Positions 7,507 through 43,050 of a stretch of 43,050 bases of DNA are shown piece after piece (the stretch's first letter is position 1; each line of letters begins with the position of its first letter). Under the pieces are notes generated by a model. It was not told where the DNA came from and searched no databases. It saw nothing but the letters and a program-made list of their open reading frames with translations. The DNA is from Candidatus Aquidulcis sp. (GTDB lineage: Bacteria; Chloroflexota; Anaerolineae; Anaerolineales; UBA4823): contig DYIZ01000039.1 of NCBI GenBank assembly GCA_020723385.1, positions 1-43,050 on the forward strand. Reading direction: 5' to 3'. The position numbers and the translations under genes are program-made.

Positions 7507-7698
7507 GCGCTCTTATCCAGAGAGGCGGAGGGACCGGCCCTGTGAAGCCTCGGCAACCGATCGGTTGATGGTTAACGGTTGACAGTTGGCAGAAATTACT
7601 ACCAACCGCCAACTGTCAACCACCAACCAACACGGTGCCAATTCCGGCAGTAGGGATAACCCCGCAAGGGTTGTCCGATCTGGAAGATGAGAGGACGC
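7507..7698 (+). ncRNA. SAM-I (S-box) riboswitch with repeat-extended P3
   Basis: The conserved core is present in order: CTCTTATCCAGAGAGG at the P1/P2 start, GGAGGGACCGGCCC, TGTGAAGCCTCGGCAACC, then GGTGCCAATTCCGGCAG, a P4 hairpin (7653-7673, AACCCCGCAAGGGTT) and the closing GATGAGAGGACGC that pairs with 7507-7518. The aptamer binds S-adenosylmethionine and typically turns off methionine genes; here it precedes metY-metX-metW. The P3 arm is longer than usual because a heptamer palindrome is built into it. Downstream lies an intrinsic terminator, so transcriptional control is likely. Confidence 0.95.
7577..7621. repeat. Heptamer palindrome inside riboswitch P3
   Basis: 7577-7590 (GGTTGACAGTTGGC) and 7608-7621 are perfectly complementary over 14 bp around a 17-nt loop. 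Further GGTTGATGGTTAAC and ACCAACCAAC units lie outside these arms. The units match the GTTGAC/GTCAACC heptamers seen at 7290, 33770 and 38765. The insert falls where SAM-I riboswitches tolerate length change, the distal P3 helix. Confidence 0.8.
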
Positions 7699-9207: not shown

Positions 9208-9211
9208 TAAT

Positions 9212-9272
9212 CAGTCATCAGTCATCAGTGATCAGTGATCAGTGACCAGGAAACACTGATGACTGATGACTG
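9212..9272. repeat. CAGTCAT heptamer inverted repeat, 19-bp arms
   Basis: Arms 9212-9230 and 9254-9272 are perfectly complementary. Each arm is two CAGTCAT heptamers plus CAGTG. The same layout with CAGTTAT units occurs at 41605-41651. It sits between metY and metX and leaves the metX ribosome-binding site (AAGGAAG) intact. Confidence 0.8.
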
Positions 9273-9296
9273 ATAACTGGTTAAGGAAGAAACCCA

Positions 9297-16118: not shown

Positions 16119-17627
16119 TCAGCCTCCATTCAAGATCAGCGCATGGATCGCCATCACAGCCGCCTCGGCATCGCCGGAAGCTACCACCAGGCTGACCGAG
16201 ACCTCCGACGATCCCTGGGCGATGGCAATCACGTTGACGCCGCGCTGCCCGAGGGCGCTGAAAATCCGCCCGGCCACGCCGGGAGTGTGGATCATCCCGG
16301 CCCCCACGGCGGTGATGATCGCTACGTCGCCGGTAGCCCACACCCGGTCAATGTCAGCTACGGATAGCTCGATAGCGAAGGCTTTTTCGAGCGCAGCCAG
16401 TACCTGTTCGGCAGCGTCGGACGGCACCGCGAAGCAGATGGACTGTTCGGAGGAGGCCTGGGTGATGAGCGGCACGCTGGTTCCGGTGGAGGCCACCGCC
16501 CCGAAGGTGCGCGCCGCCACGCCCGGCACACCCAACATGCCGCGCCCCTCGACAGTCACCAACCGCTGCCCGCGAATAGCGGTGACGGCTTTGACAATGT
16601 TATGCCCGTTCCCCCTATCCCCTTCTTTCGAGGGGAAAGGGGATAGGGGATAGGGGTCGTCATTCCCCTTTCCCTTATCCCCTATCCCCTGTTCTGCCTT
16701 CAGCCATGTGCCAGGGTGGGCCGGGTTGAACGTGTTGCAAATGCGCAGGCCGATGCCGGCATCCACCACCGGGCGGATCGTTTTGGGATGCAGCACTTTG
16801 GCCCCGAAGTAGGCCAGCTCGGCAATCTCGCGATAGGTGATCTCCGGGATGGTGCGGGCGTCGGGCACGAGGCGCGGGTCGGCGCTCATCACACCGTCCA
16901 CGTCGGTCCAGATCCACACCTCGTCGGCGGGGAGCGCCGCGCCGAGGATGCCCGCTGAGTAGTCGCTCCCGCCGCGCCCGAGGGTGGTGGCGACCCCGGC
17001 GGGCGTGGCGGCAATGAACCCGGTCACAACCGGCGTGCTGCCCTGGGCCAGGATCGGCTCCAAAACCTGGCGCGTTTTCTGCGTGGTGGCGGTGAAATCG
17101 GGGTGGGCGTTCTGGAAGCAGTCGTCGGTGACGATGAGCTGCGTGGCCTCGACGAATTGGGCTGGCGTCCCCAGGCTTTCCAGCCCGGCCGCCATCAGCC
17201 GCACCGACAGGCGCTCGCCGAGGCCCGCTACCGCGTCCAGGGCGCGCGGCGTGGCCTCGCCCAGCACGGCGATGGCGTGGCATAACCCCGTGAAATCGGC
17301 GATCAGGTGGTCAACTTCCTGTTTGACCTGGGCGCGGCGCGCCAGGTCGGTCACCACGGCGTCGGCGATGGCGTGGTGCATCTGGCGCAGGCGGTTCTCA
17401 GACTGGTAGAAGGTCTGCGTGTCGCCGCGCGCCGCCTTCGAGGCGCTGTCGAGCAGCAGGTTGGTGACGGTGGACAGTGCCGAGGCGACCGCCACCACAC
17501 GCGGCCACTCGGCGCGGCTTTGGCGCACGATGGCGATAGATTGCGCCATCGCTTCGGGCGTGCCAACCGATGTCCCGCCGAATTTCATGACGAGGGTTTT
17601 CGTTGCAAAATCATCATTGGTTTTCAT
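16119..17627 (-). CDS. lysC: Aspartate kinase with tandem ACT domains and an in-frame repeat insert
   Basis: Phosphorylates aspartate, the first step to lysine, threonine and methionine. The start at 17627 is chosen because GGAGG lies upstream and the kinase motif MKFGGTSVG follows within 14 residues (Lys15). Other kinase blocks are TLGRGGSDYSAG, WTDVDGVMSADPR and YFGAKVLHPKTI. Residues about 342-502 form two ACT domains (KAVTAIRGQRLVTVEG, GVPGVAAR; AIITAVGAGM, GVNVIAIAQGSSE), the usual site of feedback control. Residues about 313-340 ([22 protein letters not shown]) are encoded by a palindromic repeat element lying exactly between kinase and ACT parts. The total of 502 residues is longer than typical for this reason. 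It is the second gene of the attenuator-controlled unit. Confidence 0.94.
   Translation of the reverse strand: MKTNDDFATKTLVMKFGGTSVGTPEAMAQSIAIVRQSRAEWPRVVAVASALSTVTNLLLDSASKAARGDTQTFYQSENRLRQMHHAIADAVVTDLARRAQVKQEVDHLIADFTGLCHAIAVLGEATPRALDAVAGLGERLSVRLMAAGLESLGTPAQFVEATQLIVTDDCFQNAHPDFTATTQKTRQVLEPILAQGSTPVVTGFIAATPAGVATTLGRGGSDYSAGILGAALPADEVWIWTDVDGVMSADPRLVPDARTIPEITYREIAELAYFGAKVLHPKTIRPVVDAGIGLRICNTFNPAHPGTWLKAEQGIGDKGKGNDDPYPLSPFPSKEGDRGNGHNIVKAVTAIRGQRLVTVEGRGMLGVPGVAARTFGAVASTGTSVPLITQASSEQSICFAVPSDAAEQVLAALEKAFAIELSVADIDRVWATGDVAIITAVGAGMIHTPGVAGRIFSALGQRGVNVIAIAQGSSEVSVSLVVASGDAEAAVMAIHALILNGG
16609..16692. repeat. CCCCTATCCCC palindromic element inserted in frame in lysC
   Basis: The block contains two overlapping inverted repeats built from CCCCTATCCCCTT and AAGGGGATAGGGG (first pair about 16611-16623 with 16637-16650). 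Bases 16665-16690 are identical over 26 bp to 40226-40251 in guaA, in the same orientation. The length keeps the reading frame open. Confidence 0.85.
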
Positions 17628-17648
17628 GGATGCCTCCAAAAAAAATCG

Positions 17649-17720
17649 AGCCACAGAGTCCACAGTGAACGCAGAGAATCTATTCGCCATTTCTCTGAGA
17701 ACTCTGTGATCTCTGTGGCT
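17649..17720. repeat. CCACAGAG inverted-repeat element between thrC and lysC
   Basis: Outer arms AGCCACAGAG (17649-17658) and CTCTGTGGCT (17711-17720) are complementary. Inner CAGAGAATC and TTCTCTGAGA stretches add pairing. It fills most of the thrC-lysC gap, upstream of the lysC ribosome-binding site, and belongs to the same broad class as the element at 325-395. Confidence 0.6.
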
Positions 17721-32989: not shown

Positions 32990-35332
32990 ATGTCCCTTGA
33001 TCTCAACCTCCTCCCTCTCTCCCGCGCCGACGGACTCGACCAGAGTGAGCTGCCCGGCCTGTACGCGGCAGCACCGCCCCGGCGCACGGCGCGCGGGCGC
33101 AACGCCGACCGGCTGATCCTGCACTTCAGCATGACGGGCAATGCGCCGCTTTCCGCCGAACAGCAAGGCCAGATTCTCGCCCGGCTTGCCGAAACTTACT
33201 TTCAGACTCCCGGCGCGGTCACCGCCGCCACGCGGGCGGTGGCCGAGGCGCTCAACCAATTCCTGCTCGACCGCAACCGGCGCACCACCAGCAATGGGCG
33301 GCAGGGAATCGGGATGCTGTCTGTGGCGGTTGTGCGGGATGAGACTCTCATTCTTGGGCAGAGCGGCCCGACTCACGCCTTCGTCATCACCCCGCGCGGC
33401 GTCCAATACCTGTACGATCCTGAGTTGTCGGGAAGAGGGTTGGGGGTCAGCCGGACGGCGCCGATCCGGTATTTCCAGGCGCAACTGCACCCCGGCGACC
33501 TGCTCCTGCTCACCTCTCAGCTTGCCCCCGGTTGGAGTGAAACTTCGCTGAACAATGTCTACAGCCTGGGGTTAGAAAGCCTGCGCCGGCGGCTCATCAG
33601 CCATTCTGAAGAGTCGCTGGATGCCCTGGTCGTTCAGGCCCAGCCGGGGAATGGCAAGCTGCGCATCCTGCGCCCGAAAGCGGGCAGCGGTCAGCAGTCA
33701 GCGGTCAGCGATCAGCAATCTGCGGTCGGTGATCAGCAGTCAGCAGTCAGCGATCAGCAATCTGCGGTCGGCGGTCAACCGTCAACCGTCAACCGTCAAC
33801 CGTCAACGGTCGGTGATCAGCAATCTGCGGTCGGCGGTCAACCGTTAACCGTCAACCGTCAACAGTCAACCGTCAACAGTCAGCCGCCAGTTGCCGCATC
33901 ACCGCCTGGACGCTGGATACGCCAGCCGTCGCCGCCGCTTGATGAGCGCCGCAGGCCATCCGGGGCTGAAAAAGCCAGCGAGACGGCCAAACCCGCCCGG
34001 CCGCGCCCATCCCTGCCTAAGCTCAATCTCGACCCGCTCAAAAATGCAGTCGCCTCCATTGGACGCGCCCTGGGCAATACCCTGCGGGCGGTTTCGGCGA
34101 GTGTGAACACGCTCATGCGGCGCGTCCTGCCCGATGAGAGTTTGCTGCAAATTCCCCCTTCGACGATGATTTTCTTCGCCATCGCTGTCCCGGTCATCCT
34201 GGCCGTTATCGGCGGGTTCGTTTATATACGCCGTGGGCGCGCCGAGCAATTCCAATTGCACTATCACGAAGCAGCCATTGCCGCTGTCGGCGCAAGGCAA
34301 ATGACCGATATGGCTGAACAACGTACCGCTTGGAACAACGTGCTCTCCTTACTGGACGATACTGAAACTTATGGCAAATCCGCTGACTCGCAGGCGCTGC
34401 GAGGCGAGGCTAATGCCGCCCTCGATCAAATCCAATGGATTCAACGGCTGGATTACCAACCGGCCATCACCGGCATCGGCTCGCCGGATGCTTCGATGCT
34501 CATCACCCACATGGCCGCCACCGCCGATGAATTGTTCTATCTCAACAGCACCCAGGGCAACGTGCGGCGCGCCACTTTCAACGGTTCCGGCTACGATGTG
34601 GATACCCGCTTCTTCTGCAATCTGCCCACCGGCAGCGATCCCATCGTGGACATCATCGCCCTGCCAAGGGGCAACACACAAAACGCGGTACTGATGGGCA
34701 TGGATGCCAACGGGATGTTGATTTTCTGCGCGGAAAACGGTGAAGCGCCGCGCTCCCAGCAAATGGCTCCCCCGCACACCAATTGGGGTTCACCCAACGC
34801 CTTTACCCTCGACACCGGCGATTTGTTCGTGCTCGACCCGCCAACCAACGCCGTCTGGATTTTCCGCGCTATGAGCATTGATGTGCAGCCGCAGTCGTTC
34901 TTCAGCGAAGAGATCCCGGCCAACATGCAAAATGCGGTTGACCTGGCCGTCAATCGCGACGATCTTTACCTGCTGCACACCGACAGCACACTGACCTTTT
35001 GCACCTTCAGCGGATTCGAAGTCGCCCCCACTCGCTGCACTGATAACACCGTCTACAACGATCCCCGGCCGGGCTACACCAGCGGGCCATTCGTTGACGA
35101 TGCGCTGTTCAGCCAGATTCTATATACGCCACCCCCTGAGTCATCGCTGTACCTGCTCGACGCCAAACATCAAGCCATCTACCGGTTCAGTATGCAGCTC
35201 ACCCTGCACAGCCAGTACCGCCCGGTCGAGGAATTGTCAGGCGGCGCAGAGGTCACTGCCTTCACGGTCACTCCCAACCGCAGGCTGATCATCGCCATCG
35301 GCAATCAAATCTTCTATGCCAATCTTCCTTGA
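32990..35332 (+). CDS. Membrane protein with degenerate PP2C-like domain, heptapeptide linker and propeller-like ectodomain
   Basis: A 780-residue protein. Residues about 1-230 resemble a PP2C phosphatase fold (ALNQFLLDRN, GIGMLSVAVVRDETLILGQSGPTHAFV, PGDLLLLTSQLAPGW) but lack the metal-binding aspartates (no NEDR, DGxGG, GDSR or TDGL). Residues 235-297 are nine heptapeptides of the type QQSAVSD, encoded by heptanucleotide repeats. A basic stretch and one membrane helix follow (about 391-413, FFAIAVPVILAVIGGFVYI). The outside part (about 440-780) has repeated strand-rich segments suggestive of a beta-propeller (SPDASMLITHM, LYLLDAKHQAIYRFSM). It converges on a PP2C-FHA pair, so a signalling role is inferred. 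No clear Shine-Dalgarno is seen. Confidence 0.75.
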   Translation: MSLDLNLLPLSRADGLDQSELPGLYAAAPPRRTARGRNADRLILHFSMTGNAPLSAEQQGQILARLAETYFQTPGAVTAATRAVAEALNQFLLDRNRRTTSNGRQGIGMLSVAVVRDETLILGQSGPTHAFVITPRGVQYLYDPELSGRGLGVSRTAPIRYFQAQLHPGDLLLLTSQLAPGWSETSLNNVYSLGLESLRRRLISHSEESLDALVVQAQPGNGKLRILRPKAGSGQQSAVSDQQSAVGDQQSAVSDQQSAVGGQPSTVNRQPSTVGDQQSAVGGQPLTVNRQQSTVNSQPPVAASPPGRWIRQPSPPLDERRRPSGAEKASETAKPARPRPSLPKLNLDPLKNAVASIGRALGNTLRAVSASVNTLMRRVLPDESLLQIPPSTMIFFAIAVPVILAVIGGFVYIRRGRAEQFQLHYHEAAIAAVGARQMTDMAEQRTAWNNVLSLLDDTETYGKSADSQALRGEANAALDQIQWIQRLDYQPAITGIGSPDASMLITHMAATADELFYLNSTQGNVRRATFNGSGYDVDTRFFCNLPTGSDPIVDIIALPRGNTQNAVLMGMDANGMLIFCAENGEAPRSQQMAPPHTNWGSPNAFTLDTGDLFVLDPPTNAVWIFRAMSIDVQPQSFFSEEIPANMQNAVDLAVNRDDLYLLHTDSTLTFCTFSGFEVAPTRCTDNTVYNDPRPGYTSGPFVDDALFSQILYTPPPESSLYLLDAKHQAIYRFSMQLTLHSQYRPVEELSGGAEVTAFTVTPNRRLIIAIGNQIFYANLP
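33692..33880. repeat. Translated heptanucleotide array (27 units, nine heptapeptides)
   Basis: The array mixes GTCAGCA/GTCAGCG, ATCAGCA, GTCGGTG and GTCAACC heptamers. Three 7-nt units make 21 nt, so each trio encodes one heptapeptide: QQSAVSD, QQSAVGD, QPSTVNR and variants. The array runs open in frame through all 189 bases. Similar heptamers occur between genes elsewhere in the window. Confidence 0.9.
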
Positions 35333-39961: not shown

Positions 39962-41557
39962 TTATTCCCACTCAATGGTCGCGGGGGGCTTGCTGGTGAT
40001 GTCGTACACCACCCGGTTAACGCCCGGCACCTCGTTGACGATGCGGTTGGCAACCCGCGCCAGCAGATCGTGGGACAGGCGCGCCCAATCGGCGGTCATA
40101 AAATCGTCGGTGGTGACGGCGCGCAGGGCAATCGTCTCCTGGTAGGTGCGGAAGTCGCCCATCACGCCCACCGAGCGCACGGGGAGCAGGACGGCGAAAG
40201 CCTGCGAGGTACCTTCTCCGCTCGACCCCTTTCCCTTATCCCCTATCCCCTCGGGTGAGGGGGTAGGGGATAGGGGATTAAGGGTTAGCAACCCGGCTGC
40301 CGCAAGCTCACCGGTGAAAATCGCGTCGGCGGATTGCAGGCGGGCGATGCGCTCGGGGGTCACCTCTCCCAGGCAGCGCACGGCCAGCCCGGGGCCGGGG
40401 AACGGCTGCCGCCAAACGAGATCGGCGGGCAGGCCGAGCGCCTCGCCCACGGCGCGCACCTCGTCTTTGAACAGGTAGCGCAGCGGCTCGACCAGCGCGA
40501 ATTGCATGTCTTCCGGCAGGCCGCCCACGTTGTGATGGGTTTTGATGCGGGCGGCCTTGGCCCGGTCAGGGGCAGCGGATTCCACCACATCGGGGTAGAT
40601 GGTGCCCTGCACGAGGAATTTCGGTTGGCCGAGGGCGCGCGCCTGCGTCTCGAAGATGCGGATAAACTTCTCGCCGATGATGCGGCGCTTCGTCTCGGGT
40701 TCGGTCACCCCCCGCAGGGCGGCGAAATACTCGTCGGCGGCGTCCACGGCGATCAACTCGGCTCCCAGCACGCCGCGGAACGCGCCGATCACCTGCGCCG
40801 CCTCGCCCTGGCGCATCAGCCCGGTATCCACGAACACCGCCACGAGCTGGTCGCCCACGGCCTTTTGCACCAGCGCCGTCGCCACCGATGAATCCACACC
40901 GCCGGATACCGCGGAAAGCACCTTCTCGCCGCCGACCTGCTGACGGATGTTGTTGATGCTCTGCGAGATGATGGACTCCGGCGTCCAGTCGGGCGTGACG
41001 CCGCAGATGTCAATCACGAATCGGCGCAAAATCTCGGGGCCGAGCGGGGTGTGGCGCACCTCGGGGTGGAACTGCACCCCGTAGTAACGCCGCCCCTCGT
41101 CTCCCATGGCCGCCACCGGGGAGCTGCCGCTGCGTGCGAGCGGGGTAAATCCCGCGGGCGGCGTCTCGATCCGGTCGCCATGTGACATCCAGGCTTGAAA
41201 GGAAGTAACAGGGGTGAGGGGATTAGGGGATAGGGGTTCGACGATGGCGGAGCCGTATTCCCGGTGCGCGGAGGGGTTGACTTTGCCGCCCAGGGCTTGG
41301 GTGAGGGCCTGCATTCCGTAGCAGATGCCGAGGATGGGCAGGCGGCTGTCGAGCACGTAGGGCAGCAGGTGAGGCGCGCCCGGCTCGTAGACCGAGGCCG
41401 GCCCGCCGGAAAGGATGAAACCCTGCGGCTGGAGCGCCAGCACTTTCTCGGCAGGCGCGTCCCAGGGGAACAATTCGCAGTACACGTGCAGCTCACGCAC
41501 GCGGCGGGCGATCAGTTGGGCGTATTGGGAACCGAAGTCGAGGATGGCAATGTTCAT
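39962..41557 (-). CDS. guaA: GMP synthase (glutamine-hydrolysing) with two repeat-derived inserts
   Basis: Converts XMP to GMP using glutamine and ATP. The N-terminal class I amidotransferase domain has the nucleophile in LGICYGMQ (Cys79) and the His164/Glu166 pair in VQFHPEV. The ATP-pyrophosphatase domain has [12 protein letters not shown] (218-224 region), and the C-terminal dimerisation domain has [12 protein letters not shown] and KPPATIEWE at the very end, as usual. Compared with the E. coli protein from memory, about 25 extra residues ([20 protein letters not shown] and on, about 425-449) interrupt the dimerisation domain, and [15 protein letters not shown] (about 107-121) replaces a normal stretch before WMSHGD. 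Both derive from a GGGGATAGGGG-type repeat. No Shine-Dalgarno is seen; a heptamer array abuts the ATG. Confidence 0.95.
40221..40287. repeat. CCCCTATCCCC palindromic element inserted in frame in guaA
   Basis: CTTATCCCCTATCCCCTC pairs with the following GAGGGGGTAGGGGATAGGGG stretch around a short loop. Bases 40226-40251 are identical over 26 bp to 16665-16690 in lysC. The insert keeps the guaA frame open and encodes the shared GIGDKGKG residues. Confidence 0.85.
41209..41237. repeat. Short GGGGATTAGGGGATAGGGG stretch in the guaA amidotransferase domain
   Basis: A third, shorter segment of the same G-rich type lies inside guaA. It encodes [11 protein letters not shown], similar to the [10 protein letters not shown] encoded by the larger element. 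It has no complete palindrome, so it may be a remnant or a chance match. Confidence 0.55.
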
Positions 41558-41559
41558 AA

Positions 41560-41600
41560 GTTGAAGGTGGGAAGGTTGAAAGTTGAAAGTTGGTTGTCAG
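41560..41600. repeat. GTTGAAR heptamer array abutting the guaA start
   Basis: Units GTTGAAG, GTTGAAA, GTTGAAA and GTTGGTTG lie directly next to the guaA ATG on the side where a ribosome-binding site would be. Confidence 0.65.
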
Positions 41601-41604
41601 TTTT

Positions 41605-41651
41605 CAGTTATCAGTTATCAGTGATCAGTTTCCACTGATAACTGATAACTG
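41605..41651. repeat. CAGTTAT heptamer inverted repeat, 19-bp arms, overlapping a gene 3' end
   Basis: Arms 41605-41623 and 41633-41651 are perfectly complementary: two CAGTTAT heptamers plus CAGTG, then the inverse after a 9-nt loop. It is the same design as 9212-9272. The last residues of the lipoprotein (DQLSVISYQWKLITDN) and its stop codon are read from it. Confidence 0.8.
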
Positions 41652-43050
41652 ATAACTGATCGAATGGGCAGACATCTTCCGGCTCATAGTCGAGGCTTTG
41701 CTCGCCAAAATAGGCGATTGCGTAATCGCCATTACCGAGATAGGCCAGGATTTCGACCGGGTGGGCGGTCGCATATTCGATGGCTTTCCCGCAGGCGAGG
41801 CCCATACTCTGCGAGGTTTGGTATTCATCCCAGAAGGCGGTGGCCATCTCAGCGTAAGCATGTCCCGGCTGGCTGGCGGGAAACTCGGACTGGAGGGTGT
41901 TGTAGACTGTCTGCGCGTCGGACAGGTAGCCGCGCAGAAGATGCAGCAGCATGATGCGGTATTGCGCATACGCGGCGAGGTTCGGGTATTCGATCGGGTC
42001 AGAAGCAGGCGGAGTAGGATATTGTTGACAATTCGGCTTGGTCGCCCAACAAATAACTTCATAGCGATTGCGTTCGCTCGACCACCAATCGAGTTTATCG
42101 CTAAATATCGCGTCTTGATAAAATGCAAGCGCCTTTTCGTAATTTCCAGCAAGGGAATACCGGTCGCCATCCTGAATGGCCTCAAAACGGAACTGTGGAG
42201 GAGAATATTCCAAAGAGAAATAAGCAAAAATTTCTCCATTCCACATATAAGTGTATTCTTCTCCGCGGCTAGGAAGACCGTTTGGGAATGGATCATACCC
42301 ACGAATGACAAGCTCAACCGTCCTATTACTATCCGTATCTTGGAGGGTCATTTCCCCCATTTCCGCAGCAGCAACGTCGGGATAATAGAAAAGATGATTA
42401 TCAGGCCGGGTTACCAAAAGACTTTTATAACCATCCGCACTCCATTCAAAAACCCTATAAAGCGCCCATAGTTTTAGAGCGAATGATTTGACTACGATTT
42501 CTGGTATTCCATCCAAATTCATATCAGATGTTGCAACTATCCATGGCGATGCAGCACGGTTCGACCAATCATCATTTTCTTGACTGAGTAAAGTTTTGTA
42601 TTTCCCCTCGCCGCAACCAAAAATATAGAGGTTGACTCGACTGACAATCAACTCTGAAACGCTATCTCCTGTCAGATCAGCCTCATAAAGGTGGGTTCGG
42701 TTGAATTCCGCCTTGCTTGTTATTGCAGAATCGTAAGAATAATCCGGCTCCAATCCCTGTTGATCCGTCCACTCCAAGGCTTTTATTACAGCTTGTGGCA
42801 TACCGCCGGCATTGAGAAAATCCAAAATAGGTTCCTCCAGGCGAGGAAATTCGACAGACAACACTTCCTGGAAATCTGGCGTCAGGTTGGGATCACCCTC
42901 CGGGCACACCGCCGGCGGCGCAGGCGTGCGCTTGACCACGCTGGCCGCGTCGAAAGTCGGGGTGATCGAAGGCAATCGCGTCGCCGTTGGAACCGGCGTT
43001 TGGGTCGCTGTTGGACGGGCTGTATTCGATGGTCTCATCGTTGCGCTCGG
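41611..43050 (-). CDS. Large lipoprotein family copy 3, N-terminus beyond the window
   Basis: The frame is open through the right edge, so the signal peptide is missing. What remains is 479 codons: a Thr/Pro/Ala-rich stalk (PTATQTPVPTATRLPSITPT), then acidic-loop segments typical of FG-GAP/VCBS-like repeats (ADLTGDSVSELIV, SDMNLDGIPEIVV, QDTDSNRTVELVI) and TPR-like helices (GNYEKALAFYQDAI, LLHLLRGYLSDAQTVYNTL). The order matches the genes at 2810 and 11195, though it is shorter and lacks the RNP ending. The body (about 42000-42830) is A/T-richer than the flanks, as in copy 2. The C-terminal 16 residues come from a heptamer inverted repeat. Function unknown. Confidence 0.72.
   Translation of the reverse strand, partial: PSATMRPSNTARPTATQTPVPTATRLPSITPTFDAASVVKRTPAPPAVCPEGDPNLTPDFQEVLSVEFPRLEEPILDFLNAGGMPQAVIKALEWTDQQGLEPDYSYDSAITSKAEFNRTHLYEADLTGDSVSELIVSRVNLYIFGCGEGKYKTLLSQENDDWSNRAASPWIVATSDMNLDGIPEIVVKSFALKLWALYRVFEWSADGYKSLLVTRPDNHLFYYPDVAAAEMGEMTLQDTDSNRTVELVIRGYDPFPNGLPSRGEEYTYMWNGEIFAYFSLEYSPPQFRFEAIQDGDRYSLAGNYEKALAFYQDAIFSDKLDWWSSERNRYEVICWATKPNCQQYPTPPASDPIEYPNLAAYAQYRIMLLHLLRGYLSDAQTVYNTLQSEFPASQPGHAYAEMATAFWDEYQTSQSMGLACGKAIEYATAHPVEILAYLGNGDYAIAYFGEQSLDYEPEDVCPFDQLSVISYQWKLITDN

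Follow-up and report, generated by a model that had tools for sequence, protein, structure and literature searches.

We propose, with a probability of about two in three, that the genome of this Candidatus Aquidulcis sp. carries dispersed, genome-specific inverted arrays of a 7-bp unit, which were added without regard to the reading frame and have been kept in genes only where they leave the frame open and add a loop that the protein tolerates. The evidence comes from two genes of the window (the whole stretch of 43,050 nucleotides analysed), from array loci sampled across the same genome, from protein relatives of the host genes, and from a second, unrelated heptamer family.

Heptamer arrays in lysC and guaA

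The aspartate kinase gene lysC (16119-17690, minus strand) encodes 523 aa from its first ATG, with the Pfam domains AA_kinase (residues 31-319) and ACT_9 (459-517) and with matches to aspartokinases of the PDB and to the NCBIfam family asp_kinases. It contains an in-frame inverted heptamer array of 85 bp (16605-16689) that encodes a 32-residue peptide. The initial annotation had described here a single palindrome; inverted arms are indeed present, but there are three of them, in alternation. Read on the forward strand, these are a first C arm at 16605-16622 (CCCGTTCCCCCTATCCCC), a 25-bp G arm with four G runs at 16632-16656 (GGGGAAAGGGGATAGGGGATAGGGG) and a second C arm, also of 25 bp and with four C runs, at 16665-16689. 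The location of the insert between the kinase and ACT parts of the protein, as originally claimed, was borne out both by the Pfam domains (AA_kinase 31-319, ACT part 455-517) and by alignment with the archaeal aspartokinase structure 3c1m, which has zero residues between its two aligned halves at the place where the LysC insert sits. When LysC was aligned with relatives, these cleanly lacked about 25 residues in this linker, and the net gain produced by the array was 24 aa. Folded as RNA, the array gave a hairpin of -44.9 kcal/mol (z -2.7).

The GMP synthase gene guaA (39962-41557, minus strand; 531 aa; Pfam GATase and GMP_synt_C; NCBIfam PRK00074) harbours two arrays. The first one, at 40226-40284, is in frame and two-armed, with a 25-bp C arm (40226-40250) separated by an 8-bp spacer from a 26-bp G arm (40259-40284); it encodes a 21-residue peptide, represents a net gain of 8 to 15 aa over the relatives and folds as RNA into a hairpin of -42.1 kcal/mol (z -5.3). 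The second one, at 41211-41236 (minus strand), had been overlooked previously; it consists of one arm encoding a 10-residue peptide and brings no net change in length with respect to two of three relatives, whose loop is equally long. In total, three arrays of the same unit, with three, two and one arms, lie in two genes of the window, where CCCCTATCCCC was matched 11 times with at most one mismatch against 0.85 expected. A short repeat of the GAAAGTTGAAAGTTG type was also seen at 41560-41600, just upstream of the guaA start.

The presence of palindromic DNA in frame in these two unrelated housekeeping genes was thus confirmed, as was the finding that both share 26 identical bases, CCCCTTTCCCTTATCCCCTATCCCCT, which span the second C arm of lysC plus the next base (16665-16690) and positions 40226-40251 in guaA, with the frame open and both copies read as GIGDKGKG. 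The identity is nothing special. Among 64 arms with four runs we found 3 identical pairs, while 3.4 are expected when the units are shuffled; the lysC/guaA match is therefore what random unit order yields and does not support direct copying between the two genes.

Copy number, anatomy and distribution of the CCCYTWT family

The genome comprises 6.43 Mb in 239 contigs of a single draft assembly (95.6% complete, 4.5% contamination). The unit of the family can be written as CCCYTWT / RGGGAWA (for example CCCCTAT), and its arrays are inverted, typically with two arms of about 25 bp, each containing four G or C runs. Genome-wide there were 106 matches for CCCCTATCCCCT, the seed with which the sample of loci was drawn, and 286 for CCCYTWTCCCYT, so that the search for further copies revealed a family larger than the initial annotation had it. 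From about 2.6 matches per site in the part of the matches listed, we estimate some 110 array sites in the genome.

In the fetched loci, 64 of 116 arms had four runs, more than any other number, and 24-26 bp was the commonest length; the spacers belonging to the unit were CTAT (135), TTAT (33) and CTTT (30). Neighbouring arms were inverted in 41 of 46 pairs (24 C-to-G and 17 G-to-C), with a spacer mostly of 8-10 bp in the C-to-G pairs and of variable length in the G-to-C ones, and examples of both orders gave strong RNA hairpins, with folding energies of -42 to -50 kcal/mol and z from -4.6 to -5.3. The two arms of one element resembled each other no more (0.696) than arms of different elements (0.707), unit order varying independently between arms and sites.

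Arrays of period 7 are nearly the only perfect arrays in this DNA. We counted 37 of them in 484 kb, along with four of period 8 and zero of periods 4-6 or 9-12, although the period-7 count is inflated, as the loci had been picked for the two heptamer families; ten of the arrays consisted of other units. No perfect arrays of period 7, 4-6 or 9-12 were found in 400 kb from three relatives. One array of another unit, a perfect (GTCAACC)n, lies in the window at 33774-33807 inside an ORF (32990-35332) without Pfam match that reads as repeated DQQSAVGGQPSTVN segments, and long intergenic (CGTAAAA)n / (TTTTACG)n arrays occur in two other loci of the same genome (L291, 186-246; L037, 1594-1626).

Relatives have few or no copies of the arrays. 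Each of 37 family genomes gave 0-23 matches of CCCYTWTCCCYT, in most cases at or below the level of the reversed control. The hairpin pattern CCCCTATCCCN{4,30}GGGATAGGGG is present at 32 places in this genome, and a search of 395 others from the class returned no occurrence. A scan of 84,980 named species for the exact hairpin returned 85 scattered stretches, those inspected being compact palindromes of other kinds, and a comparable expansion in none of the other genomes scanned. Related arrays do occur, one or two each, in two further members of the family (G002, G017) and two of the order (G051, G056); the CCCYTWT unit is thus not strictly confined to this genome. At a locus of G056 (L084) there is moreover an inverted array of other 7-8-base words, GTGATTG ... 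TGATCCCTTATCCC, which hints at lineage-specific units with the same layout. Repeated palindromes of separate kinds were noticed in two Nocardioidaceae MAGs, MGR_bin201 and MGR_bin226, which have in common a palindrome pair, GGGCACTTCCAATGGGTTCGAACCC... adjoining GTGCCCCTATCCCACGTTCACGTGGGATAGGGGCAC (L171, L187, L203, L220), and in the Prevotella MAG RUG759, with at least 3 copies of the palindrome GACCCACCCCTATCCCCTCCCT...AGGGAGGGGATAGGGGTGGGTC (L204, L207, L241). In the open-access literature we found no description of this CCCYTWT array family.

Arrays inside genes leave the frame open and free of stops

Genes were called with a codon model trained on the sampled loci, which gave a coding fraction of 0.85. 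Of the larger elements (at least 3 unit pairs), 26 out of 41 lay inside genes, and 46 elements did so when the small ones were counted. All in-gene elements were open, in frame and stop-free; it should be considered that our own gene calls require an open frame and so bias this set, the counterweight being the alignments with relatives, in which both flanks are homologous to one protein, and the absence of broken genes. Among elements whose two flanks were clearly coding, 37 kept strand and frame, and the 10 frame changes all fell between distinct genes. No gene split by an element was detected among the flanking and intergenic neighbour genes scanned. Intergenic copies often filled narrow intervals between genes, with only a few bases left on either side before a stop or a start codon. 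The host genes include lysC, guaA, elp3, uvrA, dnaG, mutS, valS, ligA, metH and recD2, and on our reading of the sequences addA- and addB-like genes probably belong to the same list.

A pure four-unit G arm has a stop codon in each frame, and gene copies therefore depend on variant units. In sense-strand G arms within genes, the spacer triplet was TAG in 0 of 29 cases in reading phase, where AAG, CAG, GAG or ATG stood instead, compared with 43 of 67 in the other two phases (p = 3.7e-10); in intergenic arms TAG accounted for 53 of 115.

Presence or absence in relatives was determined for 32 elements with orthologues, at the protein level and with relatives of other genera, so that the exact ends are approximate. 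The two-arm elements (n=20) added a median of about 15 residues, with 8 aa or more in 18 of the 20, and the one-arm elements (n=12) a median of about 1 residue. Element sites coincided with loops whose length differs among the relatives. Each two-arm copy probably arose by insertion of new DNA, and some one-arm arrays, rather than being insertions, may have changed the sequence of loops already there. To judge by the reading frames, translation of the in-gene arrays is most likely and would give extra surface loops of the PLSPIP / GIGD(R,K)G type, some 15-25 residues long, and the two-arm inserts are presumably neutral or mildly harmful.

A stop-laden family behaves differently

The TNACTGA family provided a control for these observations. 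Its seed ACTGATNACTGATNACTGA had 203 matches in this genome and 0 in 36 of 37 family members, and its neighbouring arms were inverted in 24 of 29 cases, always in one order. None of the three frames is free of stops in the right arm, and just 5 of 41 arrays lay in genes, versus 26 of 41 for the CCCYTWT family (p = 2.8e-6). Both inverted arrays of this kind in the window, at 9210-9274 and, a short way past the 5' end of guaA, at 41610-41660, were called intergenic. At one locus (L042, 454-539), a TNACTGA inverted array sits in a DEAD-box helicase gene and is read in frame, with the peptide QLSVISDQLSVISDQ... The window also contains a SAM riboswitch (RF00162, 74.7 bits) at 7510-7693. Since the stop-laden TNACTGA arrays are mostly intergenic and the readable CCCYTWT arrays mostly lie in genes, arrays seem to arrive blind to the frame, with selection deciding which persist.

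Origin and persistence of the arrays

We considered several ways in which such arrays could have come about. A non-autonomous transposable element of the MITE, REP or Rickettsia-palindrome kind, mobilised in trans by a hairpin-recognising transposase, would account for the dispersed inverted pairs, the fairly fixed arm of 24-26 bp, the C-to-G spacers mostly of 8-10 bp and the strong hairpins, and the genome does have six matches to Y1 transposases (PF01797). None of these six places was flanked by array arms, however: five lacked any arm in their vicinity, and for the sixth the only one was short, unpaired and about 1.3 kb away. No target-site duplication was detected at the elements (mean 2.56 versus 2.59 for random pairing), with ends fuzzy enough for short duplications to escape, and the copies lack a common unit order, arms being no more alike within an element than across elements. 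We regard this origin as rather unlikely. A maintained functional element, be it a G-quadruplex or i-motif, an RNA hairpin or a protein-binding site serving regulation or chromosome organisation, is more doubtful. The predominance of four G runs suits an intramolecular quadruplex, the hairpins are strong, and the heptamers of Xanthomonas and Nostoc form quadruplexes in vitro (PMC4692102); against this, the elements sit in genes of unrelated kinds, arms within an element match no better than chance, the family is lacking or scarce in relatives that carry the same genes, and the TNACTGA family has the matching inverted layout without G runs. Its arms are similarly multi-unit, and the quadruplex was rejected as the main cause of the four runs.

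Local replication slippage, by which heptamers would grow in place from chance seeds with the help of a heptamer-specific slippage tendency of the polymerase, agrees with the near exclusivity of period 7 across several unrelated units, with the polymerase-footprint idea cited in PMC4692102 and with the one-arm patches that often show no net length gain. It would give neither one unit at about a hundred sites, nor the excess of inverted neighbour pairs, nor the peak of four runs per arm, and we consider it a slightly poorer prospect than a functional element. That the inserts are removed or bypassed rather than translated (intein-like, by splicing or by ribosome hopping) is very improbable: hairpins within coding regions could permit bypassing, but the frame and stop-free state kept in all gene cases would be needless under it.

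Frame-blind addition followed by selective survival remains our preferred reading. Arrays would be added at many sites irrespective of the reading frame, and copies in genes would persist only when they are of a length and phase that keep the frame open and when the extra loop is tolerated. As to how they spread, our guess is that recombination or template switching during replication copies arms from existing arrays as inverted pairs with no dedicated transposase, a route we prefer because fixed ends, duplications and a linked transposase are not evident. More tentatively, and we would sooner bet against it, an active, sequence-tolerant process might write inverted arrays, each of some four 7-bp units, into scattered sites, from at least two unrelated units, and might recently have given dozens of housekeeping proteins new loops in frame.

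Relation to known repeats and significance

The nearest described DNA is that of the heptameric G-rich repeats of Xanthomonas (GGGAATC) and Nostoc (GGGGATT), of which 7-11% and about 32%, respectively, are intragenic (PMC4692102). The present arrays resemble both in having a G-run heptamer (with three or four G), mostly at least 4 units and a dispersed location on both strands, and resemble the Xanthomonas repeats in their inverted pairs, which are common there. They differ in that about two thirds of the larger elements lie in genes, in frame and in many housekeeping enzymes, whereas those repeats are mostly intergenic, and in that both array orders, C-to-G and G-to-C, occur.

A likeness to the Rickettsia palindromic elements had been proposed, and it stands for behaviour only. 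Like these and the Wolbachia elements, for which cases in addA, addB and priA are known (PMC4224334), the arrays are palindromic and stand in frame in numerous unrelated genes, which they do not seem to inactivate, and similar peptides recur. The Rickettsia elements, however, are of about 150 bp and form families with their own conserved sequence (PMC10969869); the arrays found here span about 55-60 bp, are built of a 7-bp unit and are not copies of one palindrome conserved over its whole length. REP/RAYT and MITE-like palindromes (PMC3733652, PMC10969869) are likewise short, abundant, palindromic and dispersed, but no fixed ends, target duplication or linked transposase were seen here. The TAACTGA repeats of Beggiatoaceae, Cyanobacteria and Bacteroidetes are almost all direct and near starts, with one inverted case (PMC4679880); the TNACTGA family shares their unit and a location limited by the stops it carries, but inverted pairs dominate.

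In-frame palindromic inserts have been described chiefly from Rickettsia and Wolbachia, and here similar behaviour is seen with different DNA, G-rich heptamers, in a 6.4-Mb genome. Two families in one genome amount to a natural experiment in which insertion and survival can be told apart. With dozens of proteins that have known relatives and carry lineage-specific inserts, the spread of such DNA and the tolerance of enzymes for new loops become directly testable. If such array writing does take place, it would be a process of an undescribed kind, selfish or genome-writing, whose defining traits are the length of the unit and the layout and not the sequence.
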